A stretch of DNA of 64,000 nt from Eudoraea chungangensis (lineage in GTDB: Bacteria; Bacteroidota; Bacteroidia; Flavobacteriales; Flavobacteriaceae): the NCBI RefSeq assembly GCF_029360665.1, contig NZ_JARDUB010000005.1, forward strand, positions 1 through 64,000, read 5' to 3'. The translations under genes and the position numbers were made by a program. This document shows positions 23,363 through 43,084 of this stretch, piece by piece. A model generated the notes under the pieces. That model made no database searches. It was given only the letters and a program-made list of their open reading frames with translations, and was not told the DNA's origin. The first letter of the stretch is position 1; each line of letters begins with the position of its first letter.

Positions 23363-23406
23363 TAAAGTTAGTATTAGCAGTATAGGATGGCAATGATTTA
23401 AATCAT
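23363..23406 (-). promoter_or_regulatory. CRP/FNR-type class II promoter for 22915-23343
   Basis: Perfect palindrome ATGATTTAAATCAT at 23393-23406. On the minus strand a -7-like box TAACTTTA lies at 23363-23370. The palindrome centre is 33.5 bp from the first T of TTTA, the spacing seen at most sites of this cluster. Confidence 0.75.
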
Positions 23407-23500
23407 GCCTATAATAAATGAAAGTAACTTACCGCTAATAGAATTTTATACTAATCCCTAAAAAACAGTGACCCCCCTCTTTGTAATAATTATTGGGAGT

Positions 23501-23902
23501 TTAAGTATAAAAATCACGAACCCACGCCATTACCTGATTATCCGTCATACTGTCGGCCGTTTTTACAGCCTTAATTTTTCTTGCCAGGTCGTTGTATTTG
23601 CCCTCCCACTCTTTTTGCAAGGCTCTTCCGGTTTCTGCCGGTCCAAAAACAACAATACAATCGGCTTTCTTGCTCTGTGCAGCTAATTCTCCAAAGTATT
23701 GTTTTAGCTGTTGTTTTTCTTTTTCTAAATATTTACTGTCCTGAACAACGTCTTGAGGACCCCACCTAGTTTTGGATCTGGAACCTCCTCTCGGATTGAA
23801 AAAATCTAGGTTTGAAAAGACGGTTTTCATCTTTACTACTTCCCCCTCCACAGAGACTATATGTGCTTTCTCCTTATCTATCCATATGCCAAGTTTTATC
23901 AT
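23501..23902 (-). CDS. Small RNase H-fold/eRF1-domain-like protein
   Basis: A 133-residue soluble protein. It opens with a strand pattern GIWIDKEKAHIVSVEGE and has a central ADCIVVFGPAETGRALQKEW segment, followed by IKAVKTADSMTDNQVMAWVRDFY. This resembles the C-terminal eRF1-like (baeRF or host-attachment) fold found in many bacterial proteins near stress genes; that assignment is from pattern memory and should be searched. It is the last gene of a probable operon after three universal stress proteins, 51 bp behind the nearest. Confidence 0.6.
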   Translation of the reverse strand: MIKLGIWIDKEKAHIVSVEGEVVKMKTVFSNLDFFNPRGGSRSKTRWGPQDVVQDSKYLEKEKQQLKQYFGELAAQSKKADCIVVFGPAETGRALQKEWEGKYNDLARKIKAVKTADSMTDNQVMAWVRDFYT

Positions 23903-23953
23903 AATATAGTGTTTAAATCAGTTTAAAAAAATTCCCCGTGAAAATCGGCTAGT

Positions 23954-24802
23954 CTAGTTATTACATGGAATAATTAGCAGTGGTATCTCTACAGACATGC
24001 ATAATTCTTCAAGTATTGGTTTCTGTATGAGCCGGTTAAAAAGGCCATGTTCATAATGCATCATAACTAGCATATCTATGTCCAATTCCTTTATAAATGT
24101 ATCAATAACCTTGCTTTTATTTGAAAACTTTGGCATAAAATACATACTGTGGTTAAGATGTGCCATGTATTTTTTAAGCGTTGCCATATTCGCTTTTTGT
24201 CGGATACTTAAATCTTCCTTCTCTTTAACATGAACAGTAAAAACCTTCGAATTCCATTCCCCGGCTAATGTTAGCAGAGGAAACAAAACTCTGGCATGGA
24301 AATAGTTCTTATAATCCGTAGCAAATGCCACATGGCGTGGTGCACTATATTCGTACGCCTCAGGGACTATCAAGATAGGACAGTTTCTTACTTTTTCAAT
24401 AGACTCCTTTACCTGGTTCCCGGATAACAAGGCAGTTAATCCCTTTTTCTTACCGTTCCCCAAAACCAACAAATCAATCTTTAGACGGGCAGCCAAGTCT
24501 TTTAGTGTCTCTTGAAGATTACCTTTTTCGGAAACTATATCATAGCTATGTTTTGGATTTGGAACGTCTAGGTTTATTCGATGCAGGGTAGACAAAAGAG
24601 CTGCTTTGGACAAGTCCCCAGGATTTAAGGGCTCTTGCAAATCTTCACTGGCCATAGTGTAGTTTGTAATACGCCTTTTGTGCAAATAATAGGTGTTGAG
24701 CAAATAGAAATGGCATTCTTTTTTCTCAAACAATTTAGTAATATAAAACAAGGCATTGTAAGCCTCATTAGAAAAGTCTGTAGCAAAAACTATGTTCTTC
24801 AT
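23954..24802 (-). CDS. Tandem universal stress protein, degenerate ATP motif
   Basis: A 282-residue protein with two UspA domains (about 1-145 and 155-282). The N-terminus IVFATDFSNEAYNALFYI is the usual Usp strand-helix start, and the second domain opens HVAFATDYKNYFHARVLFPL. The ATP-binding signature G-2x-G-9x-G(S/T) is degenerate: VLGNGKKKGLTALLSGNQ has no second glycine at the normal place. Third Usp gene in a minus-strand run with 15-bp spacing. Expression is probably from the divergent site near 26576. Confidence 0.85.
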   Translation of the reverse strand: MKNIVFATDFSNEAYNALFYITKLFEKKECHFYLLNTYYLHKRRITNYTMASEDLQEPLNPGDLSKAALLSTLHRINLDVPNPKHSYDIVSEKGNLQETLKDLAARLKIDLLVLGNGKKKGLTALLSGNQVKESIEKVRNCPILIVPEAYEYSAPRHVAFATDYKNYFHARVLFPLLTLAGEWNSKVFTVHVKEKEDLSIRQKANMATLKKYMAHLNHSMYFMPKFSNKSKVIDTFIKELDIDMLVMMHYEHGLFNRLIQKPILEELCMSVEIPLLIIPCNN

Positions 24803-24817
24803 GCTGCTTTATTTTAA

Positions 24818-25651
24818 TTAGGGGATTACCATAAAAGGAACCTCTATGTGAAAGCCAATTTTTTTAATCACTGGTTCAATAAATAAACGTTCCAAAAAAG
24901 TATGCTTGTTTTGGATCATGGCTAAAATATCTGCATTAGTTTGGGTTTGGAAATCGTGAATACCAGTAATTATCTCCTGACTGGGTAGTTCATGAAAACC
25001 TACCTCTAAACCACTTAAAATATCTTCTAACAGGCTTTTATTACTTTCTTGTTCTTCTGAAAGTGGGAATTCGTTACTAATATGGATTACATCTAAGTGA
25101 GCATTATGCTTCTTCACTAAAAACAGAAGGTCTTCCAATTGGTTTGAAGTATACTTTATTTCGTAATCGGTGGGAAACAATACCCTCTCAACATTCTTAT
25201 AATGATAAGCAGCGGGTATCGCCAAAACAGGGCAAGAGGCCTTTTTAATTACATGAACCGTATGTGTACCTAAGAATATTTCTTTTGCTCCCGTTGCACC
25301 CTGTGTTCCCATCACCACCAGGTTGGCTTCTTCGTTTGCTACGATTTCCAAAATTTCATCAACCAGAATATTAAAGGCTGAGCGCACAATAAATTGGTGC
25401 CTGGAGTTTTTAAACTTTTGTTTTAATTCTTTTTTCAGGGCTTCTAAATTATTTAAAGATTCTGACTGATATATATCTCCAAGACCTATTTGTCCAGGGC
25501 TTTGCAGCAAATACTCCGTTTGATAAATTGCCGGGGTATACGTATTTACCAAATAAAAAGTACAGGTTTCTTCTTTAAAAAGCTGTACAGCATAGCATAT
25601 AGCATTAAAAGCATTTTCAGAAAAATCTGTAGGAAGGATAATTTTTTTCAT
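24818..25651 (-). CDS. Tandem universal stress protein
   Basis: A 277-residue two-domain UspA protein (N-terminus IILPTDFSENAFNAICYAVQ; second domain from about residue 155, VLFPTDYEIKYTSNQLEDLL). The first domain has an intact ATP motif: GTQGATGAKEIFLGTHTV. The second domain lacks it, as is common in tandem Usp proteins. It lies between two other Usp genes, 15 bp from each, and so is most likely translated from a common message. Confidence 0.88.
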   Translation of the reverse strand: MKKIILPTDFSENAFNAICYAVQLFKEETCTFYLVNTYTPAIYQTEYLLQSPGQIGLGDIYQSESLNNLEALKKELKQKFKNSRHQFIVRSAFNILVDEILEIVANEEANLVVMGTQGATGAKEIFLGTHTVHVIKKASCPVLAIPAAYHYKNVERVLFPTDYEIKYTSNQLEDLLFLVKKHNAHLDVIHISNEFPLSEEQESNKSLLEDILSGLEVGFHELPSQEIITGIHDFQTQTNADILAMIQNKHTFLERLFIEPVIKKIGFHIEVPFMVIP

Positions 25652-25666
25652 GACTTTATTTTTAGG

Positions 25667-26515
25667 TTACCGATGTAAATTTTGAAAAACCAAAAATGGT
25701 ATTTTAATATGTAAGCCAATCTTTTCTAAGGTAGATTGATACAGTAAATCTTCTAAATGAGAGTGCTGGCTATTTACCATCACCAACATATCTATCTTAT
25801 TATGCAAAATATACTTTGTTATCGCCATTGTTTTGTCCTTTTCCTCGGTTGTTTCAAAACTCAAATGGGCTTTGTACAAACACTCCTTAAGGTAGTGCAT
25901 ATTATCTTCTTGTCTTATAGATAGTTTTTGAATTGGATTTATATAAAGCAAATGTATTGCAGATCTATATGAGCCGGCTATTTCACATAGAAACTTGAGT
26001 TCTCTTCTTTTATATGGAACCATATAATCTGATGGAAACAATATTTCCCTGGGCTCATGATAGGTATAGTCTTCCGGGATTGCAAGTACAGGGCACTGAA
26101 CATATTTCATTACCTGGACCGTGTTAGAGCCAAATGTAATTTGCCTATCATTCGTTTTTCCCCTAGTTCCCATAACCACACAGTCGGCATTTTCTAAATT
26201 TACCAAATTATTCACCTCATCAGTCAGAGATCCAAAAGCAGACAGCATTTTATACTTGTGCTTAGGATTCGGTAGACACTCATTTATCTTTTCTTCTAAA
26301 TGCAAAAGCTGCAAGTCTACTTTATCATATATCTTTTCTTTTCTTCTCTCCATCTCCTCCCTGCTTTTACTTTCGGATTCGTTATAGACTTCATCAGCAT
26401 AGGCATGTAACACGTACATATCGCACCTTGTATATTTAAAAAGTTTGGAGGCAAAATACAAGGCGTTAAAGGCATTCTTAGAAAAGTCTGTAGGAATAAC
26501 AATCTTTCGCATCAT
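25667..26515 (-). CDS. Tandem universal stress protein, first gene of Usp operon
   Basis: A 282-residue protein with two UspA domains (IVIPTDFSKNAFNALYFASK; second domain ILFPSDYMVPYKRRELKFL). The ATP motif GTRGKTNDRQITFGSNT in the first domain is intact. It heads a probable four-gene operon (25667-26515, 24818-25651, 23954-24802, 23501-23902). Its promoter shares one CRP-type palindrome with the divergently transcribed thioredoxin gene. Confidence 0.9.
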   Translation of the reverse strand: MMRKIVIPTDFSKNAFNALYFASKLFKYTRCDMYVLHAYADEVYNESESKSREEMERRKEKIYDKVDLQLLHLEEKINECLPNPKHKYKMLSAFGSLTDEVNNLVNLENADCVVMGTRGKTNDRQITFGSNTVQVMKYVQCPVLAIPEDYTYHEPREILFPSDYMVPYKRRELKFLCEIAGSYRSAIHLLYINPIQKLSIRQEDNMHYLKECLYKAHLSFETTEEKDKTMAITKYILHNKIDMLVMVNSQHSHLEDLLYQSTLEKIGLHIKIPFLVFQNLHR

Positions 26516-26539
26516 ATAAATCTTTATGAACTAACAAGC

Positions 26540-26613
26540 TAAATTTACGCACAATAACCATCCAATACTATGACAAAGATCAGTAATGAAATGGAGCATA
26601 TTTTTTATCTTTA
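26540..26613. promoter_or_regulatory. Divergent CRP/FNR-type promoter pair (Usp operon and thioredoxin)
   Basis: Near-palindrome ATGACAAAGATCAG at 26570-26583, centre 26576.5. To the left, on the minus strand, is a -7-like box TAAATTTA at 26540-26547. To the right, on the plus strand, is TATCTTTA at 26606-26613. Both are 33.5 bp from the palindrome centre to the first T of TTTA, so one bound dimer could activate both directions. Confidence 0.75.
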
Positions 26614-26631
26614 TTCATATTTTTATACCCT

Positions 26632-26931
26632 ATGAAAAAAGATTTTTTGTCTATTACTTCTGGCAACATACCCATATTAATAGATTTTTATGCAGACTGG
26701 TGCGGCCCGTGCAAAACCTTAGCTCCTATTTTAAAAGAAGTAAAAAAAGAATTGGGGGATTCGGTAAAAATAATCAAGATAGATGTAGATAAGAATCAGG
26801 CCCTAGCAACGAAGTTTCAGGTTAGAGGCGTCCCAACTATGATGCTCTTTAAGAACAACAAACAACTTTGGAGACAATCAGGTGTTCTTCCAAAAAATGA
26901 TATAATTACCATTGTTAAATCGCATCAATAA
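26632..26931 (+). CDS. Thioredoxin
   Basis: A 99-residue thioredoxin with the active site WCGPCK (residues about 23-28), the preceding ILIDFYAD strand, and the conserved cis-proline loop RGVPTMMLFKNNK. It is a cytosolic disulfide reductase. It is transcribed away from the Usp operon, with a CRP-type palindrome ending 49 bp upstream of the start, so it seems to be a dedicated stress-regulon thioredoxin and not necessarily the main housekeeping one. Confidence 0.93.
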   Translation: MKKDFLSITSGNIPILIDFYADWCGPCKTLAPILKEVKKELGDSVKIIKIDVDKNQALATKFQVRGVPTMMLFKNNKQLWRQSGVLPKNDIITIVKSHQ

Positions 26932-26999
26932 GTCGGACTAACAAAAACATAAACCCATTTTTAGTTTTAAAAGGTGTTGTTCCAAGTCCTTTTCTTTCG

Positions 27000-27839
27000 T
27001 TATTCGTGTAAGACCAGAAAAGGTATTTCCGTATGGTAGCTAATCTCTTCCACAGAAGGCTTAAAAAGAATTCTCTGAAAGTAATTTAAATTTTTTGCAA
27101 CCATGGCTACCATATCAATCTCTCGACTATCAACAAAACACTGAATGGAAGTTTCCAGGCGATTGCCTCTTACTAAATGGAAGCTATGATCTATTCCCCT
27201 GAGATAATCGTGTAAAAACTCCTTATTGGATTCTTGTTCTTCGTTTAATTTTTCCCCTTTTATGGATATATGCACAATTCTAAGAATTGCCTTATTCATC
27301 ACTGCCATGGCACTAAGTGTATCTAAGACCTTCATATCATAAGTCATGTGGTAGTCAGTCGGAAAAGCGATTTCCTTTATTCTTTTATATAAGGCGTCTT
27401 CAGGAATAGCAAGGAGGGGACATTTCACTTTGGTAATAACATCTCCAGTATTACTGCCAACAACAGCTCCCTTAAAACCCGTGGCTCCTTTGGTTCCCAT
27501 GATGATCATATCAATATTATTTTTCTCTACCTCCGCATTTATACCATCCACAAAAAAATCGTATAGAGCAATAGTCTTAAAAGAGTGTAATGTATTAGCA
27601 TTCCTTTCTTCTATTTTACAAAGTAATGCATGTATTCTTTTTTTACTCTCTTCAAGATATGCTTTTTGCAATTCTGAGCCGCTAGACCGTATGGAAGTAC
27701 CCGCTCCGGAATAAGGAGGAATCGGATTTATATGCAATAAATAAAACAAACATTTACTCTTTTTAAATAATTGCAAACCATATTCAATTGCATTGGAAGA
27801 GTTCTCAGAAAAATCTGTGGGAATCAGTATACGCTTCAT
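27000..27839 (-). CDS. Tandem universal stress protein
   Basis: A 279-residue two-domain UspA protein (ILIPTDFSENSSNAIEYGL; second half IAFPTDYHMTYDMKVLDTL). The first domain has an intact ATP motif, GTKGATGFKGAVVGSNT. It is convergent with the thioredoxin gene and monocistronic as far as spacing shows. A palindrome ATGAY-N4-RTCAT lies 48 bp upstream of its start. Confidence 0.9.
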   Translation of the reverse strand: MKRILIPTDFSENSSNAIEYGLQLFKKSKCLFYLLHINPIPPYSGAGTSIRSSGSELQKAYLEESKKRIHALLCKIEERNANTLHSFKTIALYDFFVDGINAEVEKNNIDMIIMGTKGATGFKGAVVGSNTGDVITKVKCPLLAIPEDALYKRIKEIAFPTDYHMTYDMKVLDTLSAMAVMNKAILRIVHISIKGEKLNEEQESNKEFLHDYLRGIDHSFHLVRGNRLETSIQCFVDSREIDMVAMVAKNLNYFQRILFKPSVEEISYHTEIPFLVLHE

Positions 27840-27857
27840 GGTCTTTTAGTTTAACAC

Positions 27858-27900
27858 TAAAGTATTGGTCTGTATAAGAATAGGAAATGATGCAAGTCAT
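27858..27900 (-). promoter_or_regulatory. CRP/FNR-type promoter for Usp gene 27000-27839
   Basis: Palindrome ATGATGCAAGTCAT at 27887-27900. On the minus strand, TACTTTA ends at 27858, with its TTTA starting 32.5 bp from the palindrome centre. This is one base shorter than most sites in the cluster, and the -7 box has a shortened TAnTTTA form. Confidence 0.6.
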
Positions 27901-27949
27901 GCTCTTACTCTTATAGCTGATAAAGCTTCTACTTAGCAAGAAAACCAAG

Positions 27950-29218
27950 TCAAAGTTCTTTTTCAAACTGTGGAGGGCTGTAATCTATAACCCTTGCGGT
28001 TTCCGGGAGAAATACTTCAAGGGAAATTGTAAAACTTCCATTAGGAATCTTTAACCAATACTCTTTTTGTACCTCTGCAGAGAAGTATAGATCAAAAGTG
28101 TCTTTTTTATCTAACATCTCTTTGGTAAACGTAAGACTCTTTCCTATTTGGTGGTTGTTTGAATCCAGTATGGAGACCGTCATAAATCCATTCTTTCCTA
28201 AAGGTGGGAAGTCTTTTTTATTAAAATGTATTTTACCCTCTCCCTCTGTGGAAGCCCTGTACCAAACGGACTCCTCAGGGGAGTTACTCCACAATTGAAC
28301 AAAAGCTCCTGTAGCTCTTTTTAAATAATCTCCTTTAAATGCATAGGGGTTTCCGTAAAAACCCATAGAACTAGAATAGCCATTTAGAGCCTTCATTTCC
28401 TTTACCGAAGACTTAATAGAAGATAATGCAGAATCAATTCCCTTTTGTACTGCTATTAATTGTTCTGGTTTTAAACGTACAGAATCTATAATTCCTATAG
28501 GCTTAAAACGCTCTAATAATGCCACTTCCTTCTTCGGAATACTATCCATTAAACTATTGACATAAGAGACAAAATTGGGAGAAAAAGCCTTTTCTTCTTT
28601 ATAGGTAGGATATACAGAAGTTTCCAAGGGAGCATAAACTACCTTTACCTCATTCACTATTTCCTCTAGCTTCTTTTGTTCCCAACTATTTTTGTTGAGA
28701 AGCCCCATTAACACAACGGCATAGTTTCCTTCCAGTAAAATACTTTGAATCGACTGATCATTTGGAAGTCCCTGACCCTCCTTATAAAAAACAAACCTAC
28801 CCCCATAGCCAAAATTAGCTCTTGTACCCATATAGAAAATATTATGGGTAAACATGTCTATACATTGATAAGCCACATAAGCATCTCTTATCGTTGGAAC
28901 ATCTATAATTACAGGGCCTTTCGTTATATCTACTAAAATCCCTGCTGTATTAGGTAAAATCCTAACACCCGTCTTATTGGAGGTGGTATCTTTAGATAAG
29001 AAACCACTAATTAAGGTAAATTTATTCTTTACAAGAGTTTCTTTTTCAAGTAGGGAATTAACCAGCTTTATCTGCGCTAAAACTGGATACGAATAGATAA
29101 ACGCTTCGTAAGCGATATCCTGGTATTCTTTGTTAGAAAGTTCTGGTGTCTCGTCTTTCATACAGGAAAGCAGCAAAAATAAACTTGCTAGAAACAAGGA
29201 AAAGTGTTTTAATCTCAT
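27950..29218 (-). CDS. DUF1254/DUF1214 lipoprotein
   Basis: A 422-residue protein with a lipoprotein signal (FLASLFLLLSC, probable lipidated Cys19). The N-terminal half (YEAFIYSYPVLAQ and PTIRDAYVAYQCIDMFTHN) fits DUF1254. The C-terminal half (KDFPPLGKNGFMTVSILDS and KIPNGSFTISLEVFLPE) fits DUF1214. Members of this family are periplasmic or outer-membrane associated and lack a settled biochemical role. It follows the CRP-fused response regulator by 100 bp on the same strand. No regulon palindrome was seen directly upstream. Confidence 0.8.
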   Translation of the reverse strand: MRLKHFSLFLASLFLLLSCMKDETPELSNKEYQDIAYEAFIYSYPVLAQIKLVNSLLEKETLVKNKFTLISGFLSKDTTSNKTGVRILPNTAGILVDITKGPVIIDVPTIRDAYVAYQCIDMFTHNIFYMGTRANFGYGGRFVFYKEGQGLPNDQSIQSILLEGNYAVVLMGLLNKNSWEQKKLEEIVNEVKVVYAPLETSVYPTYKEEKAFSPNFVSYVNSLMDSIPKKEVALLERFKPIGIIDSVRLKPEQLIAVQKGIDSALSSIKSSVKEMKALNGYSSSMGFYGNPYAFKGDYLKRATGAFVQLWSNSPEESVWYRASTEGEGKIHFNKKDFPPLGKNGFMTVSILDSNNHQIGKSLTFTKEMLDKKDTFDLYFSAEVQKEYWLKIPNGSFTISLEVFLPETARVIDYSPPQFEKEL

Positions 29219-29318
29219 AAAATTAAATTAGGAAAATTAGGATAGAACTTTTATGTAGTTATTAGAATTAATTCGGATAATCCCTGTCGAAAATAAATTG
29301 AAATATGTTCTAAGAAAA

Positions 29319-30374
29319 CTAATCTGCTATTTTTTTTAGTTTACTACTGTCCAAAATACCAATTTCCCTGTCGTTAATGGCAATAAGTCCCTCCTTTTTA
29401 AAAGCAGAAAGTGTTCTTATGAGCGTTTCTGTGGCCATTCCAGCTACACTTGCTAAATCGCTTCTAAGCACATGAATATTCCCTTTATCATTAGATTGTA
29501 ACCTGTCGGCAAATTTCAGTAAAGTACTGGCCGTTTTTTGCCGGACCGTGCCATAGGCCAATTGTATTAATTGCCTTTTAATATCCGTGAGATGTTCAGA
29601 AAGATATTCCAGTAATTCTATGGAAAGCTCATGATTTTGCCCTAATATTTTACTATAATCTTCCTGAGGTAAAGTCGTTAAAACGGAAGTTTCAATGGCT
29701 GTGGCAAACTCATCGTAAGGTTGAATACTGGTAAAGTTCGTAAACCCAAAAAAGTCATCGGGCTTATAAATTCCAGTAATTAATTCCTTTCCTTTTTCAT
29801 CTAGCTTATGGGTTTTGATTACTCCAGATTTAACTAAATATATTAGATTGGCATGGTCTCCTTCCCGATAAATAGTTTCTCCAAACTTATATTTCTTCTC
29901 CAATCCATGATCATCGATATAATTTTTAAACGCATTAATATTCTTAATCTCTTCGCTTATTTTTTCGCTACTAGAAACCAAATCCTCAGGGCCTTTTAGT
30001 ATCTCTGCCTTAGCCAACCTACTATTAATAGCTCCAAGTAGTTCCCATTCTTGAAAAGGCTTTGACAAATAATCGTCGGCACCTAAGGACATTCCTTTGC
30101 GAACATCTATTCTTTCTGCTTTGGCACTTAAAAAAATAAAGGGAATTCCTCTAGTTTCTGGCTTTGTTAACAAACATTCCAGTACGGCATATCCATCCAG
30201 TTTAGGCATCATTATGTCGCATAAAACAATATCTGGCATAGTGTTTTGAATTAACTTCAGACCTTTTTCCCCATCAGAAGCAGTAAAAACTTCAAAACCA
30301 TTAAGTTCTAATAGTTCCGCAACACTTTCCCTAAGTGTTTTATCATCTTCTACCAACACAATTTGCCTTTTCAT
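29319..30374 (-). CDS. Response regulator fused to CRP/FNR-type transcription factor
   Basis: A 351-residue protein: receiver domain about 3-120 (acidic cluster VEDD at 8-11, phospho-acceptor Asp53 in LCDIMMPKLDG, switch Lys in LSKPFQ); linker; cyclic-nucleotide-binding-like beta-barrel about 150-260 (FGETIYREGDHANLIYLVKSGV); Crp-type HTH about 275-345. Its recognition helix ATETLIRTLSAFKKEG keeps the Glu and Arg that contact the GA step in FNR-family proteins. There is no cysteine cluster for an FNR iron-sulfur centre, so phosphorylation is the likely input. It lies 21 bp behind its probable kinase, and is the best candidate to bind the seven ATGAY-N4-RTCAT palindromes nearby. Confidence 0.9.
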   Translation of the reverse strand: MKRQIVLVEDDKTLRESVAELLELNGFEVFTASDGEKGLKLIQNTMPDIVLCDIMMPKLDGYAVLECLLTKPETRGIPFIFLSAKAERIDVRKGMSLGADDYLSKPFQEWELLGAINSRLAKAEILKGPEDLVSSSEKISEEIKNINAFKNYIDDHGLEKKYKFGETIYREGDHANLIYLVKSGVIKTHKLDEKGKELITGIYKPDDFFGFTNFTSIQPYDEFATAIETSVLTTLPQEDYSKILGQNHELSIELLEYLSEHLTDIKRQLIQLAYGTVRQKTASTLLKFADRLQSNDKGNIHVLRSDLASVAGMATETLIRTLSAFKKEGLIAINDREIGILDSSKLKKIAD

Positions 30375-30395
30375 AATCTTTAAGTTTAGAATGGA

Positions 30396-32294
30396 TTAAA
30401 CGCTTACAATTTCTCTTTGTGAAATTGGAAGTTCTACTGTAAACTCGGTTCCTTTATTCTCTACACTTTTGAAACTTATATTCCCCCCAAGCTTGGTTAC
30501 ATGAGAATGAACAATGTTTAGACCAATACCCGTACCCTGAGTTAATAAGACATTATCCGCTCTGAAATATCTGTCAAAAATATGTTTTTGATCTTTCTCT
30601 GGAATCCCCAAACCACTATCAATAACACGCATCTGCATAGTTTTTTCCTGAATAGTAATTTTTAATATTATGTTGGTGTTCTCGGGAGAATATTTAATTG
30701 CATTGTGAATTAAATTCGTGAGGATTAGACTTACGATACGTTCGTCTTGGTAAATACTGACATCCTCAATATGCATCGGATACTTTATATTTTGCCCCGT
30801 TTTTAAAAACATATTCGCATTGTATAATACTTCATTGACCACTTTACTTAGGGAAAACCTGGTACAGTTATAAAACTGTTTTCCTTTCTCAATACGTTCT
30901 ATAGACAGAAAGTCATTTAAAATATCCGTTAAGCGTTGTACTCCAGCACTTATGGTTTTTAAATGTTTCTCTCGTTTCTCTTGCTGTTCCTTCTCAGTGT
31001 ACTTACTCACTAAAGTTGCAGAGGTTAAGATAGTACTTAAAGGCGTTTTAAACTCGTGAGACACCATTGAAAGAAACTTCGTTTTTAATTCACTTAGTTC
31101 CTTCTCCTTTTCTAAAGAACTTTTCAATTCCTTAGTTCTATCTTTAACCTTCCTTTCTAACTCCTCTGTATAATTCTTTCTTTCCGAAATATCTAATACC
31201 ATCGCCACTACCACCTTCGTGCTATGCAAAGAGGACGTCTGAAGATGTACTTCTACAGGATATATACTGCCATTCTTTCTTTGTATTCTGGTTTCAAAGA
31301 CTAATTTCCTTTGCGAACTATCCAATATAAGATCTAGTTTATCTCTTAGCTGCTTTTCAAAACCATTAACAAACAAGTCTGTTATTTTCAATTTTTTAAG
31401 CATTTTAAGGCTATATCCGGTGTTCTTAATCGCACCGTAATTGGCATGCGTAAAACAGAGGCTGTTGGCATCAAAAACAAAAATTTCATTTAATGAATCC
31501 TCAAATATTTTCAAAAAATGTCGTATTTCCTCTTCTGCCTTTTTTTTATGAGAAATATCGTTGTGAACCCCAACATAATGGGTAATTTCTCCTTTTTTAT
31601 TCTTTATGGGATTGATAGACACCTCGTTCCAAAATGCCGTCCCGTCCTTCTTGACATTCTTTACCTGTACACGACATTTTTTCCCTAGAGCCATTGCTTT
31701 TAACATCACTCTAAATCCTTTGTCATGGGTCTTATTCTTTTGAAGAAAAGTACAATTTCGATCTAATATTTCGCTTTCATTATAGCCGGTTAAATTTATA
31801 AACGCCTTATTTACATAGACAATCGGGTGTCCTTTTTTTGAAGCATCCGTTATAGTAATACCATTTAAAGTTGCGTCTAAGGCGTCCTCTTTTAAATGTA
31901 GATTTTGTATTATTTCTTCCGTTTCGGATTTATCCTGTATCAATGCCAAAACATAGTTTTTTCCATACACCTGAAATGGATGAAAAGTTAATTCTAATGG
32001 AAACGTATCACCGGCTTTTCTTTTACCAAGGGTACAATTAGCCTTGAGCTCCCCATCTTCTCTTTTATTGCAAAGGAAATGTTTAACATGAGATTTATGT
32101 GCTTCCGTAAAATGATCGGGAATGAGAAGAGATAAAGACTTCTGCATTAACTCCTTCTTTATATAACCAAATAGTGCAGCCGCTTTCCCGTTAATGGAAA
32201 CTATTCGCTGCTGCTCATCAACCACCAGGATACCTTCTGTAACGGCTTCTGAAAGCAAGTGAAATATATTAGTATTTTTTTCAAAAACATGCAT
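30396..32294 (-). CDS. Multi-PAS histidine kinase with LOV-like domain
   Basis: A 632-residue soluble kinase with no membrane segment. PAS1 about 10-125; PAS2 about 133-250; PAS3 about 257-375; HisKA with MVSHEFKTPLSTIL; HATPase with NLIHNAIKYSPENTN, DSGLGIPEKD and GTGIGLNIV. PAS2 looks like a LOV domain: RNCTFLQ with the adduct Cys at 181, KNVKKDGTAFWNE and YVGVHNDIS. Two flavin contacts differ from classical LOV: Arg after the Cys is Thr, and the Gln of GVQND is His. Light or redox sensing is therefore possible but unproven. It presumably phosphorylates the downstream CRP-fused regulator. Confidence 0.88.
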   Translation of the reverse strand: MHVFEKNTNIFHLLSEAVTEGILVVDEQQRIVSINGKAAALFGYIKKELMQKSLSLLIPDHFTEAHKSHVKHFLCNKREDGELKANCTLGKRKAGDTFPLELTFHPFQVYGKNYVLALIQDKSETEEIIQNLHLKEDALDATLNGITITDASKKGHPIVYVNKAFINLTGYNESEILDRNCTFLQKNKTHDKGFRVMLKAMALGKKCRVQVKNVKKDGTAFWNEVSINPIKNKKGEITHYVGVHNDISHKKKAEEEIRHFLKIFEDSLNEIFVFDANSLCFTHANYGAIKNTGYSLKMLKKLKITDLFVNGFEKQLRDKLDLILDSSQRKLVFETRIQRKNGSIYPVEVHLQTSSLHSTKVVVAMVLDISERKNYTEELERKVKDRTKELKSSLEKEKELSELKTKFLSMVSHEFKTPLSTILTSATLVSKYTEKEQQEKREKHLKTISAGVQRLTDILNDFLSIERIEKGKQFYNCTRFSLSKVVNEVLYNANMFLKTGQNIKYPMHIEDVSIYQDERIVSLILTNLIHNAIKYSPENTNIILKITIQEKTMQMRVIDSGLGIPEKDQKHIFDRYFRADNVLLTQGTGIGLNIVHSHVTKLGGNISFKSVENKGTEFTVELPISQREIVSV

Positions 32295-32333
32295 ACAAAT
32301 GGTTTTCGACTAACTAATCTTATACAACTAATA

Positions 32334-33170
32334 CTAGATCCTAAAAGTAATAATTGGCCTATCTGCATGGTTGGCCATTGCCTCACTTATGCTGCCTTTA
32401 AAAAAATGGGCAATACCATTGCGACCATGAGTAGTTATTGCAATAAGATCTGCGTTCTGTTGTTCGGCATATGAAAAAACACCACCTTCTATGGTATAGT
32501 CAGAAACTGTTACTAGCTGCTGTTTAGAAGGATGCTGATTGTGATAGGCTACTTTTAGGAATAAATCCCTTTTCTCCAGGATCTCCTCAGTGCTTTTAAA
32601 ATCGTCGTTTGGTAAGTTTACATATACCAAATGTACCTCGGCCTGCCACTTTTTAAATAATGCCATGGCATTTTGATATGCTTTTAGACTTTCCAGTTCA
32701 AAATCACATGCAAAGACTATCAAAGAAGGATGATAGGCGCTGCGTTGCTTCTTAATGACTAGTACAGGGACTTCAGACGTCCTTACAACCTTTTCCGTAT
32801 TTGAGCCTACAAAAAACTCTCCAATACCACTTTTACCATGTGACCCCATTACAATTAAATCTACCCCTTCTTCTTTAGCTAATTCATTGATTTCACTAAA
32901 AATTTTGTAATTCTGTACCAGCTCTGTAAATCGAATTCCTTGAAGATAGGGCTTGTCTAAAAGTTTGGTAAACCGTTGCTTCGCCAACTTCATATAGTAA
33001 TGAGCTTCTGCTGCTTCTTCTGAAGGACTTTTGGTTAAGTAAGCCTCTGAAAGGCCCATCATATGTAGCACCAGTATATCTGCCTTATATGTTTTCGCAA
33101 ACTGTGCAGCCACTTCTAAGGCATAGTCAGAGTATTCTGAGAAATCAACTGGCACTAAAATCTTTCTCAT
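32334..33170 (-). CDS. Tandem universal stress protein
   Basis: A 278-residue two-domain UspA protein (ILVPVDFSEYSDYALEVAAQ). The first domain has an intact ATP motif, GSHGKSGIGEFFVGSNT. The second has a near-complete one, TTHGRNGIAHFFKGS, unusual among the Usp proteins here, whose second halves lack it. It sits 19 bp after the ribosome hibernation factor gene and 39 bp before the histidine kinase, apparently in one operon. Confidence 0.9.
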   Translation of the reverse strand: MRKILVPVDFSEYSDYALEVAAQFAKTYKADILVLHMMGLSEAYLTKSPSEEAAEAHYYMKLAKQRFTKLLDKPYLQGIRFTELVQNYKIFSEINELAKEEGVDLIVMGSHGKSGIGEFFVGSNTEKVVRTSEVPVLVIKKQRSAYHPSLIVFACDFELESLKAYQNAMALFKKWQAEVHLVYVNLPNDDFKSTEEILEKRDLFLKVAYHNQHPSKQQLVTVSDYTIEGGVFSYAEQQNADLIAITTHGRNGIAHFFKGSISEAMANHADRPIITFRI

Positions 33171-33189
33171 TTCTGTTAAATTTATTTGG

Positions 33190-33489
33190 CTAATGTTTCT
33201 TGAGCATGTCTTTGCGTTTAGCCAATTGGTTTTCTAATTCCTTTACTACAGTTGCGGCCGCCTTTTCAAAATTATCTTGGTTAGATTTAGCAAAAAGTCT
33301 GGGGCCCGGAGCACTCAGCTGAATTTCACATATTTTCCCCATTCCTGAAGGGTCATTTTCTAGTTTAAAAAAGACATCCGCCTTAATAAGCCAATCGTAC
33401 TTTTTTTCTAGCTTTTGTAGTTTAGCAATAACAATATCACTCATTGAATCACTAGTTGGCATTTGAACATACTGTATATTAATCGTCAT
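33190..33489 (-). CDS. hpf: Ribosome hibernation promoting factor, short form
   Basis: A 99-residue HPF/RaiA-family protein (INIQYVQMPTSDSMSDIV; KADVFFKLENDPSGMGKICEI; AATVVKELENQLAKRKDMLK). These proteins bind the 30S A/P sites and help keep ribosomes inactive in stationary phase. The short length lacks the dimerising C-terminal domain of long HPF. First gene of a probable operon with a Usp protein, the kinase and the CRP-fused regulator. A CRP-type palindrome precedes it by 55 bp. Confidence 0.88.
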   Translation of the reverse strand: MTINIQYVQMPTSDSMSDIVIAKLQKLEKKYDWLIKADVFFKLENDPSGMGKICEIQLSAPGPRLFAKSNQDNFEKAAATVVKELENQLAKRKDMLKKH

Positions 33490-33513
33490 AGTTATTTATA
33501 ATTAAGTTTAGAA

Positions 33514-33557
33514 TAAAATTCGCCATTTACGGAAGTCTAAACTATGACATTTATCAT
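33514..33557 (-). promoter_or_regulatory. CRP/FNR-type promoter of the hpf-usp-kinase-regulator operon
   Basis: Palindrome ATGACATTTATCAT at 33544-33557. On the minus strand the TTTA of a weak -7 box (GAATTTTA, 33514-33521) begins exactly 33.5 bp from the palindrome centre. Because the operon ends with the CRP-fused regulator, this implies positive autoregulation. Confidence 0.7.
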
Positions 33558-33607
33558 TTTAATAAATTCCCCTGGAAACAGAAATAAAAAAGAATAAGTT
33601 AAAGGAC

Positions 33608-34045
33608 TTAGTATTTACTAGGTTGACCCTCCTTTAGTAACACTAGCAGAACTCCGAGTATAATTACATTTTTAATAATATACTGCCCCAAAAGTGTTAA
33701 TCCAAATGGAGTTTGACTAAAGAGTAATTCGGGAAAGAAAAGGAAAGGAGAAAAGGTAAACAGGATATGGACCAGAGCCATACGAAGGGCGGCCTTCCTA
33801 TAAATGTTTGCAATTAAAAGTATCCCTATAAGGGTTTCCCAAATTGCCAAAAGAATTATAGAATACGTTGAAGGTAGAATTCCAAATATTAACCGCTCTA
33901 TAGTACTCTTGGCTAATTCTTCGGCAGGACTTACTCCACTAAAGAATTTTAAAGCCCCAAACCATAAGTAGACGATACCAATACTAACAGGAAGATAATT
34001 TATATTTTTCCTTTTGTTCCAATATTCAATAACCAATTCTCTCAT
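33608..34045 (-). CDS. DoxX-like integral membrane protein
   Basis: A 145-residue protein with four predicted membrane helices (about 18-36, 50-75, 83-102 and 110-136). The first helix YLPVSIGIVYLWFGALKFF and the following FFSGVSP region resemble the DoxX/DoxD and YkgB group. Function in this family is poorly defined and often tied to redox or thiol stress. It is monocistronic, with a CRP-type site 41 bp upstream. Confidence 0.7.
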   Translation of the reverse strand: MRELVIEYWNKRKNINYLPVSIGIVYLWFGALKFFSGVSPAEELAKSTIERLIFGILPSTYSIILLAIWETLIGILLIANIYRKAALRMALVHILFTFSPFLFFPELLFSQTPFGLTLLGQYIIKNVIILGVLLVLLKEGQPSKY

Positions 34046-34056
34046 AATAAAAATGC

Positions 34057-34099
34057 CAAAATAGATATGATATCATAGGTAAAAGCTGATAAATATCAT
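34057..34099 (-). promoter_or_regulatory. CRP/FNR-type promoter for the DoxX-like gene
   Basis: CTGATAAATATCAT at 34086-34099 is palindromic except its first base. On the minus strand TATTTTG ends at 34057, with TTTG starting 32.5 bp from the palindrome centre. A second, tighter palindrome ATGATATCAT (34067-34076) lies between, of unknown meaning. Confidence 0.6.
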
Positions 34100-34183
34100 A
34101 CTTTCTAAACATTACTGAAATTCTTTTGCTATGGATTATTTAGTAAAAACTTGGCTGCCGCAAGAAAAGGATATTTTCGTTAA

Positions 34184-34227
34184 ATGATTTTTATCATAAA
34201 TCAGAATTTTTATTATCAATAGTTTTG
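34184..34227 (+). promoter_or_regulatory. CRP/FNR-type promoter for the LytTR-ABC unit
   Basis: Perfect palindrome ATGATTTTTATCAT at 34184-34197. A full TAnnTTTG box, TAGTTTTG, lies at 34220-34227, 33.5 bp from the palindrome centre to its first TTT base. The leader to the ATG at 34282 would be about 50 nt. Confidence 0.75.
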
Positions 34228-34281
34228 AACTAGGTTGCTCTTGTTGAGCTATACCCATTGTTACTAATTTAAGCTTAGCAG

Positions 34282-34980
34282 ATGAATTTACTATTGAAAG
34301 TTTTAGTAGTTGAAAAGGCAGCAGAGGAATTAAATTCGGTTAGTTCCCTAGTTCTAAACCATAAAAATTTAGTTTTAACAGCTGGTGTAGCCAGGCCGAG
34401 TAGTTTAAATAAATTTTTAACCCGACAAAAAATTGATGTCGTAATTATAGATATAGAACATCCTTTACTGCATGAATTAATAAATTCCGATTCCCTATTA
34501 AAAGGTATATCACTAATTCTAACCTCCGCAGATACGAATAATGCTTTACTTGCATTCGACTTTGGTGCTACCGACTTTTTGGTAAAACCCCTAAGCAGAG
34601 AAAGGTTTAACAAAGCCATCCGTAAGGTAATTAAACTCCAGTCGAGGGAGCAAAATTCCTACAGCTCTACGGTCAAAATATGTGTTAGAAGTGAGATGAA
34701 GGACAGGTTAATCGCGGTAGATAATATTTTGTGGATTGAAGCCTTGGGCGACTATGTAAAAATAGTTACTACAACTGAAAAAATAATTGTTCTAACAACT
34801 ATGAAATCTATTGGCCTTCTTCTTCCATCTGAACAATTTCTTAGAACACACAGGTCTTATATCGTTAATCTTAAAAAAGTTAAGAACATCGGTGTATCGA
34901 ATCTAGATATCGGAAGAAAAGAAATACCTTTAAGTAGAAATCAAAAGAAACTCCAAGAACTCTTGGCTATAGAAATATAG
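34282..34980 (+). CDS. LytTR-family response regulator with degenerate receiver
   Basis: A 232-residue protein: receiver-like domain about 5-118 and LytTR DNA-binding domain about 130-230 (ILWIEALGDYVKIVTTTEKI; FLRTHRSYIVNLKKVKNI). The receiver keeps the central Asp57 (VVIIDIEHP), a Thr-containing LTSAD strand and the Lys of LVKPLS, but the acidic pair near the N-terminus is reduced to VVEKAAEEL, so phosphorylation may be weak or absent. No kinase adjoins it. It precedes three ABC-export genes by 43 bp and is probably co-transcribed with them. Confidence 0.85.
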   Translation: MNLLLKVLVVEKAAEELNSVSSLVLNHKNLVLTAGVARPSSLNKFLTRQKIDVVIIDIEHPLLHELINSDSLLKGISLILTSADTNNALLAFDFGATDFLVKPLSRERFNKAIRKVIKLQSREQNSYSSTVKICVRSEMKDRLIAVDNILWIEALGDYVKIVTTTEKIIVLTTMKSIGLLLPSEQFLRTHRSYIVNLKKVKNIGVSNLDIGRKEIPLSRNQKKLQELLAIEI

Positions 34981-35023
34981 ATAATTTAAGTACATTTATA
35001 AGAATTGATGAATTGAACATTCC

Positions 35024-36127
35024 ATGAAAAAATGGTTTATACTACTTAGAAATTACTTGCCTTTTTACTGTCTTTTACTTGTGTTTTCCTGCAAAAACAA
35101 TGTCGATAAAATTCTGCCCTCGGAAGAAAAGCTTATAGAATCTGTTTACTCCTCGGTGATTGTTCAACCAGATAGCCTATATCAGGTATATGCCGCAGTA
35201 GGCGGAATTTTAGAAACCAATTTAGTAGAAGAAGGTGATCTTGTAACCAAGGGAACACCCATTGCCCAAATTATTAATAATACTCCCAAACTGAATACAG
35301 AAAATGCCAAACTTAGTTTGCATCTGGCAAGAGAAAATTACCAGGGTAGTAATACTCTTTTGAGGGCTCTGAGAGATGAAATAAGTGCCGCACAATTACA
35401 ATACAAGAATGACTCCATAAATTATACCCGGCAAAAGAACCTTTGGGATCAAAATATTGGTTCTAAAATAGAATTTGATAATAAAAAGCTTGCCTTTGAA
35501 CTTTCAAAGAATAAATTGACATTACTTAAAAGCAACTATGATCGGACAGAGACCGAGCTCGATACCCGATTAAGACAAGCTGAAAATAACTATCAAAGTG
35601 CTCTGATTACCACGGACGACTTTTCTGTAGAAAGCGTCATTAACGGAAAGGTCTATGCCCTGTTAAAAAACCCCGGAGAAATAGTCAATACCTCAGGACC
35701 AATAGCTATTATTGGCAGTACCGAAGATTTTATAATTGAAATGCAGGTAGACGAAGTGGATATCGTAAAGCTTAGGCTGGGTCAGAAAGTAATAATTACA
35801 TTAGACGCCTATGGCACAGAGACATTTAGCGCGACATTAAATAAAATTTATCCCCAAAAGGATGAGCGTTCCCAGACATTCAAGGTTGAAGCTTTATTTG
35901 ACACACTCCCCTCAGTTCTATATCCTGGCTTGGCTGGAGAAGGCAATATTGTAATTGCTGAAAAAGAAGGAGTGCTTACCATTCCCAAATCGTATCTGAT
36001 TGGATCAAATAAGGTAAAAACAGTAGAGGGCATAATACCAATCGTACTAGGATCAGAGAACTTAGATAAGGTTGAGGTATTAAAAGGCTTAAATGCAGAC
36101 ACATATATATATAAACCCACCGAATGA
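35024..36127 (+). CDS. Membrane-fusion lipoprotein of ABC efflux system (HlyD/RND-adaptor type)
   Basis: A 367-residue protein with a lipobox (LLLVFSCKNN). The lipoyl-like half VYAAVGGILETNLVEEGDLV, a long coiled-coil hairpin about residues 85-190, and a beta-barrel with KLRLGQKVIITLDAYG match periplasmic adaptor proteins. It bridges an inner-membrane transporter to an outer-membrane channel; no TolC-like gene is in the window. Its stop overlaps the start of the permease gene (ATGA). Confidence 0.85.
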   Translation: MKKWFILLRNYLPFYCLLLVFSCKNNVDKILPSEEKLIESVYSSVIVQPDSLYQVYAAVGGILETNLVEEGDLVTKGTPIAQIINNTPKLNTENAKLSLHLARENYQGSNTLLRALRDEISAAQLQYKNDSINYTRQKNLWDQNIGSKIEFDNKKLAFELSKNKLTLLKSNYDRTETELDTRLRQAENNYQSALITTDDFSVESVINGKVYALLKNPGEIVNTSGPIAIIGSTEDFIIEMQVDEVDIVKLRLGQKVIITLDAYGTETFSATLNKIYPQKDERSQTFKVEALFDTLPSVLYPGLAGEGNIVIAEKEGVLTIPKSYLIGSNKVKTVEGIIPIVLGSENLDKVEVLKGLNADTYIYKPTE

Positions 36128-37386
36128 CTAACTGGAAGGTAATTCTGAGTATTGCAAAAACTCATTTGTTGACCAAGTTAAAATCTACAATTACTGCATC
36201 CTTAGGGGTTACTTTTGGTATTGGAGCGTATATCACTCTGGTAAGTTTTATGACTGGTCTAAATGAGATGTTAGACAATTTGGTTCTAAACCAAACGCCC
36301 CATATTCACATGTACAACGATATAGAACCTTCGGCCCAACAACCCATAGACTTGGCAAGACCGCTAAGTACCGATTTTAATGTAGTTCGCTCTATTAAGC
36401 CCAAAATTAGTCAGACCAAAATACACAATGCCTTACCAATTTTAGACTACTTAAAGAAAAACAAAGAGGTAAAAGGAGCTACACCCCAGTTGAGATTACA
36501 AATTTTTTATATATCTGGTTCTATAGAATTAGGTGGGAATCTGGTTGGTATCGACGTAATGGAAGAGGTCCGACTGTCTAACATCAGAGATAACATAATA
36601 AAAGGAAGTCCGGAAGCATTAAAAAACAATGAAAATGGCATTTTATTAGGATCTGGCTTGGCAAATAAAATGTCGCTTTCCGTTGGGAACAGAGTACAGG
36701 TAAGTACCGTGGAAGGAGCTGTATTTCCCTTAAAAATAGTTGGAATCTACCAAAGTGGATTGGCCGAAATTGATAATATTCAAAGTTTTACGAACCTAAA
36801 GACCCTCCAAAAAATTCAGGGAAAAGCCCAAAATTATATTACCGATATCAATATTAAGCTGAACAATATAAATAAAGCAACCCCAATAGCAAAGGAGTTA
36901 GAAAAACAATTTAAGATTAAGGCCACAGATATTAATGAAGCCAATGCACAATTTGAAACAGGGAGTAGTATTAGAAATATAATAACCTATGCCGTTTCCA
37001 TTACCCTTCTTATTGTAGCTGGCTTTGGCATATATAACATCTTAAATATGCTTATTTATGAAAAAATGCAGGACATTGCAATCCTGAAAGCAACTGGCTT
37101 TTCGGGTAGAGACGTTCAGTATATATTTATGAGTCAGGCTATTATTATTGGCATTGCAGGTGGTATATTGGGGCTTATCCTTGGATTTATTTTTTCCACA
37201 ATAATTGACGGTATTCCCTTCGAAACAGAAGCCCTGCCAACTATAAAAACTTTTCCGGTAAACTATCAATTTAGCTATTATGTTATTGGAATTACATTTG
37301 CCCTAATATCCACTTTTATCGCAGGTTATTTGCCGGCCAATAAAGCCCGGAAGATTGATCCTGTAAGGATAATAAGAGGGAATTAA
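36124..37386 (+). CDS. ABC transporter permease, MacB/LolE type
   Basis: A 420-residue FtsX-family permease. It has one N-terminal membrane helix (about 20-42), a large periplasmic domain (about 45-275), and three C-terminal helices (about 285-305, 335-360 and 380-405) ending in PANKARKIDPVRIIRGN, the usual end of this family. It overlaps the adaptor gene by 4 bp and is followed after 9 bp by the ATPase, giving a complete adaptor-permease-ATPase set. Substrate unknown. Confidence 0.88.
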   Translation: MTNWKVILSIAKTHLLTKLKSTITASLGVTFGIGAYITLVSFMTGLNEMLDNLVLNQTPHIHMYNDIEPSAQQPIDLARPLSTDFNVVRSIKPKISQTKIHNALPILDYLKKNKEVKGATPQLRLQIFYISGSIELGGNLVGIDVMEEVRLSNIRDNIIKGSPEALKNNENGILLGSGLANKMSLSVGNRVQVSTVEGAVFPLKIVGIYQSGLAEIDNIQSFTNLKTLQKIQGKAQNYITDINIKLNNINKATPIAKELEKQFKIKATDINEANAQFETGSSIRNIITYAVSITLLIVAGFGIYNILNMLIYEKMQDIAILKATGFSGRDVQYIFMSQAIIIGIAGGILGLILGFIFSTIIDGIPFETEALPTIKTFPVNYQFSYYVIGITFALISTFIAGYLPANKARKIDPVRIIRGN

Positions 37387-37395
37387 TAATTTGGT

Positions 37396-38070
37396 ATGAA
37401 AGCAGTTTTAAAAGCTGAAAATATAAATAAACACTTTAAAAAACCCGTGGATTTTCATGTGTTAAAAGACATTAATTTCCAGATTAATTCAGGCGAGTTC
37501 AGCTCTATTATGGGGAAGTCTGGCTCAGGTAAATCGACGCTCTTATATATTCTCTCTACCATGGATACGGACTATGAAGGCAAACTCTTCCTAAATAATC
37601 AACTTGTTACGGGGAAAAGTCATCAGGAATTATCTAAAATAAGAAATGAGCATATTGGCTTTGTTTTTCAATTCCATTATCTACTTGCCGAGTTTAGTGT
37701 TCTGGAAAACGTGATGCTTCCAGCTAAAAAGTTGGGGCGTCTAAGCACTTCCGAAATTGAACACAATGCTTTTTCAAAACTTAAAATGCTAAATATAGAA
37801 CAGCTTGCAAATAAAAGGGCATCTAGAATTTCAGGCGGGGAAAAACAGCGTGTTGCAATTGCCAGAGCCCTTATAAATAGTCCTAGCATTCTTATGGGTG
37901 ATGAGCCTACGGGTAATCTAGACAGCTATAATGCCGAGAATGTTTTTCAAATTTTTAAACGCCTTAAAGAAGAAGAAGGTCTCTCTTTACTAATAGTAAC
38001 TCATGATTTAGACTTCGCGAAAAGGACGGATCGTATCATTGAGATGGAAGATGGTTATTTAGTAAAATAA
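37396..38070 (+). CDS. ABC transporter ATP-binding protein, MacB/LolD type
   Basis: A 224-residue ATPase: Walker A GKSGSGKST, Q-loop FVFQFHYLL, signature SGGEKQRVAIARAL, Walker B LMGDEPTGNLD, H-loop VTHDLDFA. It powers the permease encoded just upstream. Last gene of the LytTR-adaptor-permease-ATPase unit. Confidence 0.93.
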   Translation: MKAVLKAENINKHFKKPVDFHVLKDINFQINSGEFSSIMGKSGSGKSTLLYILSTMDTDYEGKLFLNNQLVTGKSHQELSKIRNEHIGFVFQFHYLLAEFSVLENVMLPAKKLGRLSTSEIEHNAFSKLKMLNIEQLANKRASRISGGEKQRVAIARALINSPSILMGDEPTGNLDSYNAENVFQIFKRLKEEEGLSLLIVTHDLDFAKRTDRIIEMEDGYLVK

Positions 38071-38152
38071 AGTAGCCAATGGCATCTTGTAAAATTGCCC
38101 ACTTAGTAATTGGTTTAAGAAGCTATTACAGTATTTTTATGAACCTATTGGC

Positions 38153-38196
38153 ATGACTAATATCATAAAATTTAATGCCCTGAACATATATCTTTA
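38153..38196 (+). promoter_or_regulatory. CRP/FNR-type promoter for 38220-38657
   Basis: Palindrome ATGACTAATATCAT at 38153-38166 and -7-like box TATCTTTA at 38189-38196. The palindrome centre is 33.5 bp from the first T of TTTA. Spacing and box sequence are identical to those of the thioredoxin promoter. Confidence 0.75.
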
Positions 38197-40746: not shown

Positions 40747-40768
40747 TTTTAGATATTCAACTATATAA

Positions 40769-43083: not shown

Positions 43084-43084
43084 T

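Follow-up and report, generated by a model that had tools for sequence, protein, structure and literature searches.

A palindrome-and-box promoter unit marks a stress-gene island in Eudoraea chungangensis that may answer to a FixL-like kinase and a fused receiver-CRP regulator

The stretch of DNA analysed here, called the window below, comprises the first 64,000 nucleotides of contig NZ_JARDUB010000005.1 of Eudoraea chungangensis (Flavobacteriaceae), and between positions 23,363 and 38,196 it holds an island of genes for universal stress proteins (Usp) and signalling proteins whose promoters share a CRP/FNR-type palindrome. A run of four minus-strand genes lies within the island in the order HPF-Usp-kinase-REC-CRP: an HPF-like ribosome-hibernation protein (S30AE; 33190-33489, Pfam PF02482), a Usp (32334-33170, PF00582), a histidine kinase with three PAS stretches and a HisKA-HATPase part (30396-32294; Pfam, PDB sequence matches and Foldseek) and, last, the proposed activator, in which a receiver is joined to a cNMP-binding-like domain and a Crp-type helix-turn-helix (HTH; 29319-30374; Pfam and Foldseek), here called REC-CRP. 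The intergenic gaps are 19, 39 and 21 bp, and we infer a single transcript. The minus strand also carries three tandem Usp genes (23954-24802, 24818-25651 and 25667-26515), another at 27000-27839 (PF00582 in each) and a gene for a DoxX-like protein (33608-34045). On the plus strand are a thioredoxin gene (26632-26931, PF00085) and a gene for a LytTR response regulator (34282-34980; Pfam and open reading frames) that heads an HlyD/ABC unit (35024-38070). Helical-looking proteins are encoded at 22915-23343, with no family assigned, and at 38220-38657.

Seven palindromes of the form ATGAY-N4-RTCAT accompany these genes. A scan of the window placed exact copies at 23393, 27887, 33544, 34184 and 38153 and copies with one mismatch at 26570 and 34086, just as an initial annotation of this DNA had described them. 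Read from palindrome to gene, a -7-like box starts 22 bp past the palindrome at eight promoters. The distance from palindrome centre to TTTR also agreed with that annotation, being 33.5 bp in six cases (23393 minus, 26570 in both directions, 33544 minus, 34184 plus and 38153 plus) and 32.5 bp in two (27887 minus and 34086 minus). TAnnTTTR is the promoter box of the Bacteroidota type, and class II activation follows a -41.5 rule. Five of the eight promoters have the strict box. The first of these (palindrome 23393-23406, minus strand, ATGATTTAAATCAT, with box TAACTTTA at gap 22) serves 22915-23343 and genes downstream of it. The palindrome at 26570-26583 is common to two divergent promoters, with boxes TAAATTTA on the minus strand and TATCTTTA on the plus strand, each at gap 22; its minus side faces the Usp genes at 26515-23954 and 23501-23902, and its plus side the thioredoxin gene. 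The other two strict boxes are on the plus strand, both at gap 22: TAGTTTTG beyond the palindrome at 34184-34197, for the LytTR gene and the HlyD/ABC genes to 38070, and TATCTTTA beyond that at 38153-38166, for 38220-38657. Non-strict boxes, all on the minus strand, are found before the HPF-Usp-kinase-REC-CRP run (33544-33557, GAATTTTA at gap 22), before Usp 27000-27839 (27887-27900) and before the DoxX-like gene (34086-34099, ATGATATTTATCAG in gene orientation); the last two, TACTTTA and TATTTTG, are one base short.

The density of these units is far above expectation. In the 14.8 kb of the island, a first-order Markov model predicts a mean of 0.054 exact palindromes and 0.002 units of palindrome plus strict box, and five of each are observed; none of 500 simulations matched either count. 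The seven-palindrome regulon is real. One statement of the initial annotation, that the window has no further site of this kind, needs correcting: another exact palindrome lies at 59291, though within the 415-aa coding frame 58187-59434, labelled CinA-like by eye, and without a box. Enrichment of the bare palindrome was tried as a test and dropped, since the palindrome alone was enriched neither in its exact form genome-wide (25, compared with 21 for the reversed pattern) nor in its two-mismatch form in the window (113, with 105.5 expected).

The proposed genome-wide search, with the box required as well as the palindrome, gave a clear signal. The genome has 16 half-relaxed palindromes followed at 22 bp by a strict box, compared with two for the control. 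Four of these promoters belong to the island; the other 12 lie outside the window, and several of them precede genes of microaerobic or anaerobic respiration, so the regulon is not purely local as had been described. The outside boxes precede a small gene and fused ccoNO (L125), a Usp gene adjoining a gene for an FNR-like protein (L125), a HemN-like radical SAM gene (L124), and a cytochrome c gene with a NosZ-like gene two genes further on (L127). Others precede an Hsp20 gene (L129), which must really begin at an ATG further in than the longest frame suggests, a DoxX gene and a TonB-like gene (both L128), and two genes named by eye, one peroxiredoxin-like (L114) and one quinone-reductase-like (L113); the remainder precede genes of no clear role. 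Because ccoNO, the HemN-like gene and the cytochrome-NosZ genes are among them, the box marks a genome-wide set of respiratory, low-oxygen flavour together with one dense island.

Both the box and its spacing are conserved. Taking about 20 kb around REC-CRP from each of 20 further family genomes, we found TAnnTTTR at gap 22 in 76 of the 172 oriented TGAY-N4-RTCAT sites, where 0.25 is expected per gap and none of the other gaps between 0 and 79 accounts for more than two sites. The annotated single CRP/FNR-type box at class II geometry is thus conserved family-wide, as it is at orthologous genes. No conserved -33-like element lies between palindrome and -7 box in these 20 loci, as would be expected under class II activation. 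Eleven named loci, partly overlapping the 20, gave 39 gap-22 boxes among 164 oriented sites, and across 120 genomes of the family the palindrome with box matched 1412 times, compared with 27 for the reversed pattern. For the 20 loci and the window together, a start codon follows within 250 bp in 70 of 82 gap-22 promoters, at a median of 24 bp past the box, and the first gene belongs to the Usp cluster in 41 of these 70.

Upstream regions were also compared gene by gene in nine close relatives, with per-gene identity thresholds set by hand; L141, L142 and L144, whose contigs are those of L060, L059 and L061, and the more distant L145-L148 were left out. As had been anticipated, palindrome and box are kept at orthologous genes, though not equally. 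Usp 27000 has a palindrome and the full TAnnTTTR at gap 22 in 8/8 relatives with the gene, and Usp 25667, on the minus side of 26570, has palindrome and box in 7/7. The same holds for LytTR (2/2) and, with a GAnnTTTA form of the box, for HPF (3/3). At 38220 the palindrome is found in 5/5 relatives and the gap-22 box in four of them; at 22915 the palindrome is present in five of eight and the box in four, the site being missing in three. Upstream of HlyD, three of six relatives have a palindrome, none with a strict box, and in a fourth the palindrome spans the start.

Its domains make 29319-30374 both a response regulator, with a CRP/FNR output, and a member of the Crp/Fnr family: PF00072 matches with E 3e-27, and PF00027 and PF13545 score over the Pfam cut-off. 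The receiver residues D53 and K105 are invariant in 12 REC-CRP sequences, and Foldseek returned CRP, FNR and FixK2 as best matches of the CRP half, from a model of pLDDT 80 and low overall pTM (0.41) of which the domain folds alone were used. The only cysteines, 52 and 67, are both in the receiver, and iron-sulphur sensing by REC-CRP was rejected for want of the 4Fe-4S cysteines. The NCBIfam Fnr model scores 82 bits where its cut-off is 228, and no NCBIfam model is over its cut-off among the best 25 of 107 matches. Cyclic AMP sensing appears unlikely as well: cAMP-type CRP proteins contact the nucleotide through an Arg-Ser pair in the pocket, and the candidate stretch in REC-CRP, read by eye, is YDEFATA, without Arg-Ser. 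FixJ consists of a receiver and a LuxR-type HTH. On these features REC-CRP is neither a FixJ, having a Crp-type output, nor an Fe-S Fnr, lacking the cysteines; with the receiver Asp and Lys kept and cysteines only in the receiver, its signal should come from the kinase. It is not rare, occurring in 54 of the 120 family genomes and in 55 of 395 genomes of a phylum sample (E <= 1e-60).

A second candidate regulator is the FNR-like protein L125:8071-8766 on contig 2, adjoining cbb3 oxidase genes. Its recognition-helix residues match those of REC-CRP (GTATESCIR and GMATETLIR when the two are compared), and alignment shows that a CxxC near the N terminus is kept and the next Cys of the FNR set is not. 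Presence of the two regulators was tabulated against box number in the 120 family genomes, which represent 119 genera (REC, E <= 1e-60; FNR, E <= 1e-43; site counts and E-value classes transcribed by hand). All 27 genomes with REC-CRP and no strong FNR match have at least 4 sites (median 12, range 4-36), whereas the 22 genomes with neither regulator have a median of 0; 21 of these have at most 3 sites, leaving one of the 22 with at least 4. These two classes differ with a Mann-Whitney P of about 1e-8, calculated without phylogenetic correction. The 27 genomes with both regulators have a median of 20 sites and the 44 with FNR only a median of 8 (range 0-30). A weaker CRP paralogue is also present in four of the REC-only genomes (G036, G075, G108 and G113), and some CRP-type HTH was present in 14/14 genomes checked. 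Locally, REC-CRP has 2 to 7 gap-22 promoters no more than about 10 kb away in six of the seven REC-only loci examined, out of 27. Because REC-only genomes keep the box and genomes with neither regulator mostly do not, a role for REC-CRP in regulating the box is supported. The initial annotation had inferred one activator, most likely 29319-30374; the presence/absence pattern upholds it as a regulator, but as a response regulator with CRP output beside a kinase rather than a one-component protein, and the shared recognition helix of the FNR-like protein makes a single activator probably wrong. Shared use of the box by both proteins is the likeliest arrangement in this genome, as REC-only genomes keep it and FNR-only genomes often do.

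The kinase beside REC-CRP has a FixL/DosP-like PAS domain at about residues 14-128, a LOV-like PAS domain at about 132-256, a third PAS stretch and HisKA-HATPase. All 14 distinct PDB sequence matches of the first PAS domain (E <= 0.001) are FixL, DosP/EcDOS or FG214, the last labelled heme-binding in the Foldseek listing, and with a model of mean pLDDT 75 the first 32 Foldseek matches are of the same kinds, followed by LOV and other PAS domains. In an alignment of 44 kinases, which includes the duplicate pairs L059/L142 and L061/L144 and the poorly aligning L147, the proximal His of FixL, which we take to be its heme ligand, is kept in 43 (41 of 42 distinct), and the distal Arg, located from an R220A PDB entry, in 35 (33 of 42 distinct). 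Outside the family, a related kinase adjoins REC-CRP in 15 of 16 loci. Given the resemblance of the first PAS domain to FixL and DosP and the boxes before the cco, HemN-like and NosZ genes, our best guess for the signal is low oxygen; of the dormancy or oxygen-stress programme first proposed, oxygen stress is the part that we would replace.

We consider it fairly probable that the island belongs to a survival programme for low oxygen, switched on by a fused 'FixJ-FixK' activator under the control of this FixL-like kinase. The kinase (30396-32294) would sense low oxygen through its FixL-like heme PAS domain and phosphorylate the receiver of REC-CRP. As a phosphorylated dimer REC-CRP would then bind ATGAY-N4-RTCAT, with the centre of the site about 41.5 bp upstream of the transcription start, and would bring in RNA polymerase where a -33 element is lacking, as in class II activation. 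Its predicted targets are the Usp proteins, the ribosome hibernation factor, the DoxX-like protein and the ABC unit. Through the HPF promoter REC-CRP would also turn on its own gene run, and self-activation is probable because REC-CRP is the last gene of the run behind palindrome 33544. The stand-alone FNR-like protein probably reads the same box, which would join the island to the cbb3 oxidase, HemN-like, NosZ and Hsp20 genes.

Several observations weigh against this model. The eight promoters that were annotated as a set all have their palindromes and boxes, but they are unequally conserved: besides the missing sites at 22915, the thioredoxin palindrome is found in 6/6 relatives with a strict gap-22 box in none (one has it at gap 21), and the DoxX palindrome in 4/5 with a strict box in 0/5. 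Outside the family, local clustering is mostly lost, with 7 of 126 oriented sites at gap 22 in 16 loci, and the idea that the local regulon extends there was set aside. Among the REC-only loci, L077 has no gap-22 promoters, and the genome of L063 has a weaker CRP paralogue. G048, an assembly 82% complete, has 26 strict boxes with neither regulator detected, and a second search at E <= 1e-10 returned only separate receiver and CRP-type matches. The presence/absence comparison ignores phylogeny, and many of the genomes with neither regulator are small. At most 3 sites are found in 11 of the 44 FNR-only genomes, including G026, which has none and yet has the same recognition-helix residues; helix differences as an explanation for the few sites in G026 and G012 were unsupported, the G026 helix being the same and that of G012 missed by the pattern. 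The window kinase, finally, has Asn at the position of the FixL distal Arg and the weakest FixL score of three compared, E 1e-8 as opposed to 1e-14 in a nearer relative and 5e-28 in the Chryseobacterium partner kinase, whose PAS domain is plainly FixL. On account of this Asn and this score, heme binding by the window kinase is uncertain; with the distal Arg absent, its sequence makes the kinase FixL-like rather than a FixL.

FNR-only genomes also keep the box, and the FNR-like protein could accordingly use some or all of the window sites. That it is their main reader, with REC-CRP in a different or minor role, would fit the shared recognition-helix residues and the position of its gene beside cbb3 oxidase genes and a Usp gene carrying the same box. 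We nevertheless hold this to be unlikely, since every REC-only genome keeps 4-36 sites, boxes surround REC-CRP in most of the REC-only loci examined, some of them before Usp genes, and genomes with both regulators exceed FNR-only genomes in sites (medians of 20 and 8).

An equally unlikely alternative leaves the promoter mechanics as they are and changes the signal to nitric oxide sensed through heme, redox or another PAS ligand. Heme PAS domains also bind NO and CO, as the NO- and CO-bound FixL entries in the Foldseek list illustrate; the window kinase lacks the distal Arg of FixL, and a NosZ-like gene stands behind one of the genome-wide boxes. Against this, oxygen sensors are what the first PAS domain most resembles in both sequence and fold, and boxes also precede the cbb3 oxidase genes and the HemN-like gene.

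Blue light is a third candidate input, with the island answering light as well as oxygen through the LOV-like domain. The top PDB matches of this domain are LOV proteins, and CarH-like and carotenoid-type genes lie just past the island. The photoactive Cys motif is present in 8 of the 44 aligned kinases (7 of 42 distinct), and all but the window kinase among them have the canonical NCRFLQ and GIQND (seven others, six distinct). In the window kinase the Cys is kept, Arg is replaced by Thr and Gln by His (NCTFLQ, GVHND), and the other 36 kinases lack NC.FLQ. One study of LOV receptors reports that exchanging the active-site Gln for His abolished the light responses of YF1 and NmPAL and failed to preserve that of AsLOV2, and it also lists natural Gln-less receptors with His (PMC9098866). 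With His replacing Gln, the window LOV domain may be blind, and those of relatives may be functional. Light as the main signal was ranked second, the FixL-like PAS domain being found in every kinase aligned, the LOV motif in only 8 of 44 and His for Gln in the window copy, and we regard a real light input as somewhat less likely than either of the preceding alternatives. A heme-type PAS and a LOV domain in one kinase looks unusual. That the sites are chance palindromes in AT-rich intergenic DNA would agree with the unenriched bare palindrome, genome-wide and with two mismatches in the window, but is refuted by the counts of palindrome with box and by a spacing of exactly 22 bp that recurs in independent genomes.

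In its workings the proposed circuit resembles the FixL-FixJ-FixK cascades of rhizobia, including hFixL-FxkR-FixK. A FixL-type PAS kinase, a terminal CRP/FNR-type activator, a box of the anaerobox kind and cbb3 oxidase genes among those that carry it are features of both. Unlike those circuits, receiver and CRP activator are one protein here, with no separate FixJ or FxkR step; the box is ATGAY-N4-RTCAT with a TAnnTTTR promoter, and the local targets are mostly Usp proteins. The rhizobial box is TTGAT-N4-ATCAA (PMC7888657). With FNR and Anr, REC-CRP shares the CRP-type fold and HTH, the class II spacing and targets of the Usp and respiration type, but it lacks the Fe-S cysteines and has a receiver, and the FNR-like protein of this genome is the closer FNR. 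Anr targets are known to be of the Usp and respiration type. The mycobacterial DosS/DosT-DosR system likewise pairs a heme sensor kinase with a regulon in which Usp, Hsp20 and hibernation-type proteins are prominent; DosR has a LuxR-type output domain, and this domain and its box are unrelated to those of REC-CRP. To our knowledge, little has been written on how flavobacteria sense oxygen. No description of a receiver-CRP fusion circuit was seen among the titles and abstract openings listed by searches of an open-licence library, and a study of the CRP/FNR proteins of a mixed community places its Flavobacteriales protein near MalR, with carbon sensing predicted (PMC8510549).

More tentatively, Bacteroidota may possess a FixL-FixJ-FixK-type circuit in which the receiver and a FixK-type activator are one protein, some of the kinases combine heme with a blue-light LOV domain, and a phosphorylation-reading regulator and an FNR-like, possibly Fe-S, regulator share one box, through which respiration genes and a dormancy island would be connected. 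If the main reading is right, the box could be searched for with almost no background, activated promoters of the family would follow a rule of palindrome, 22 bp and TAnnTTTR with no -33 element, and the regulator of the sensor-regulator pair would be one that 54 of 120 family genomes possess. Experiments could then ask directly whether fusing receiver and CRP does away with the FixJ-FixK relay of two steps, and in what way a pair of activators uses one box.

Other features of these loci deserve mention. Outside the family, TAnnTTTR lies at gap 44 from 12 oriented palindromes (L205-L220), perhaps representing one repeat. The box-driven runs include a gene for a beta-CASP metallo-beta-lactamase RNase-like protein in nine family loci and one for an ATP-cone/Mrr-endonuclease-like protein, likewise in nine, each named from one representative (examples L070:3438-4280 and L073:3413-4786). 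No Pfam or NCBIfam match was found for the three proteins of about 145 aa encoded at 22361-22804, 22915-23343 and 38220-38657. The first weakly resembles 38220 (E 1e-6) and 22915 (E 0.005 to 0.04), and 22915 and 38220 share no alignment longer than 9 residues; relatives of these proteins recur in 11 REC-CRP loci of the family. Between REC-CRP and the Usp gene at 27000-27839 lies a DUF1254 gene (27950-29218), which was not seen between them at the L058 locus. Just past the island, 39844-43534 encodes a CarH-like MerR/B12-binding regulator (76 bits, with an NCBIfam cut-off of 400), followed by amine-oxidase/desaturase-type, phytoene-synthase-type and hydroxylase-type genes.

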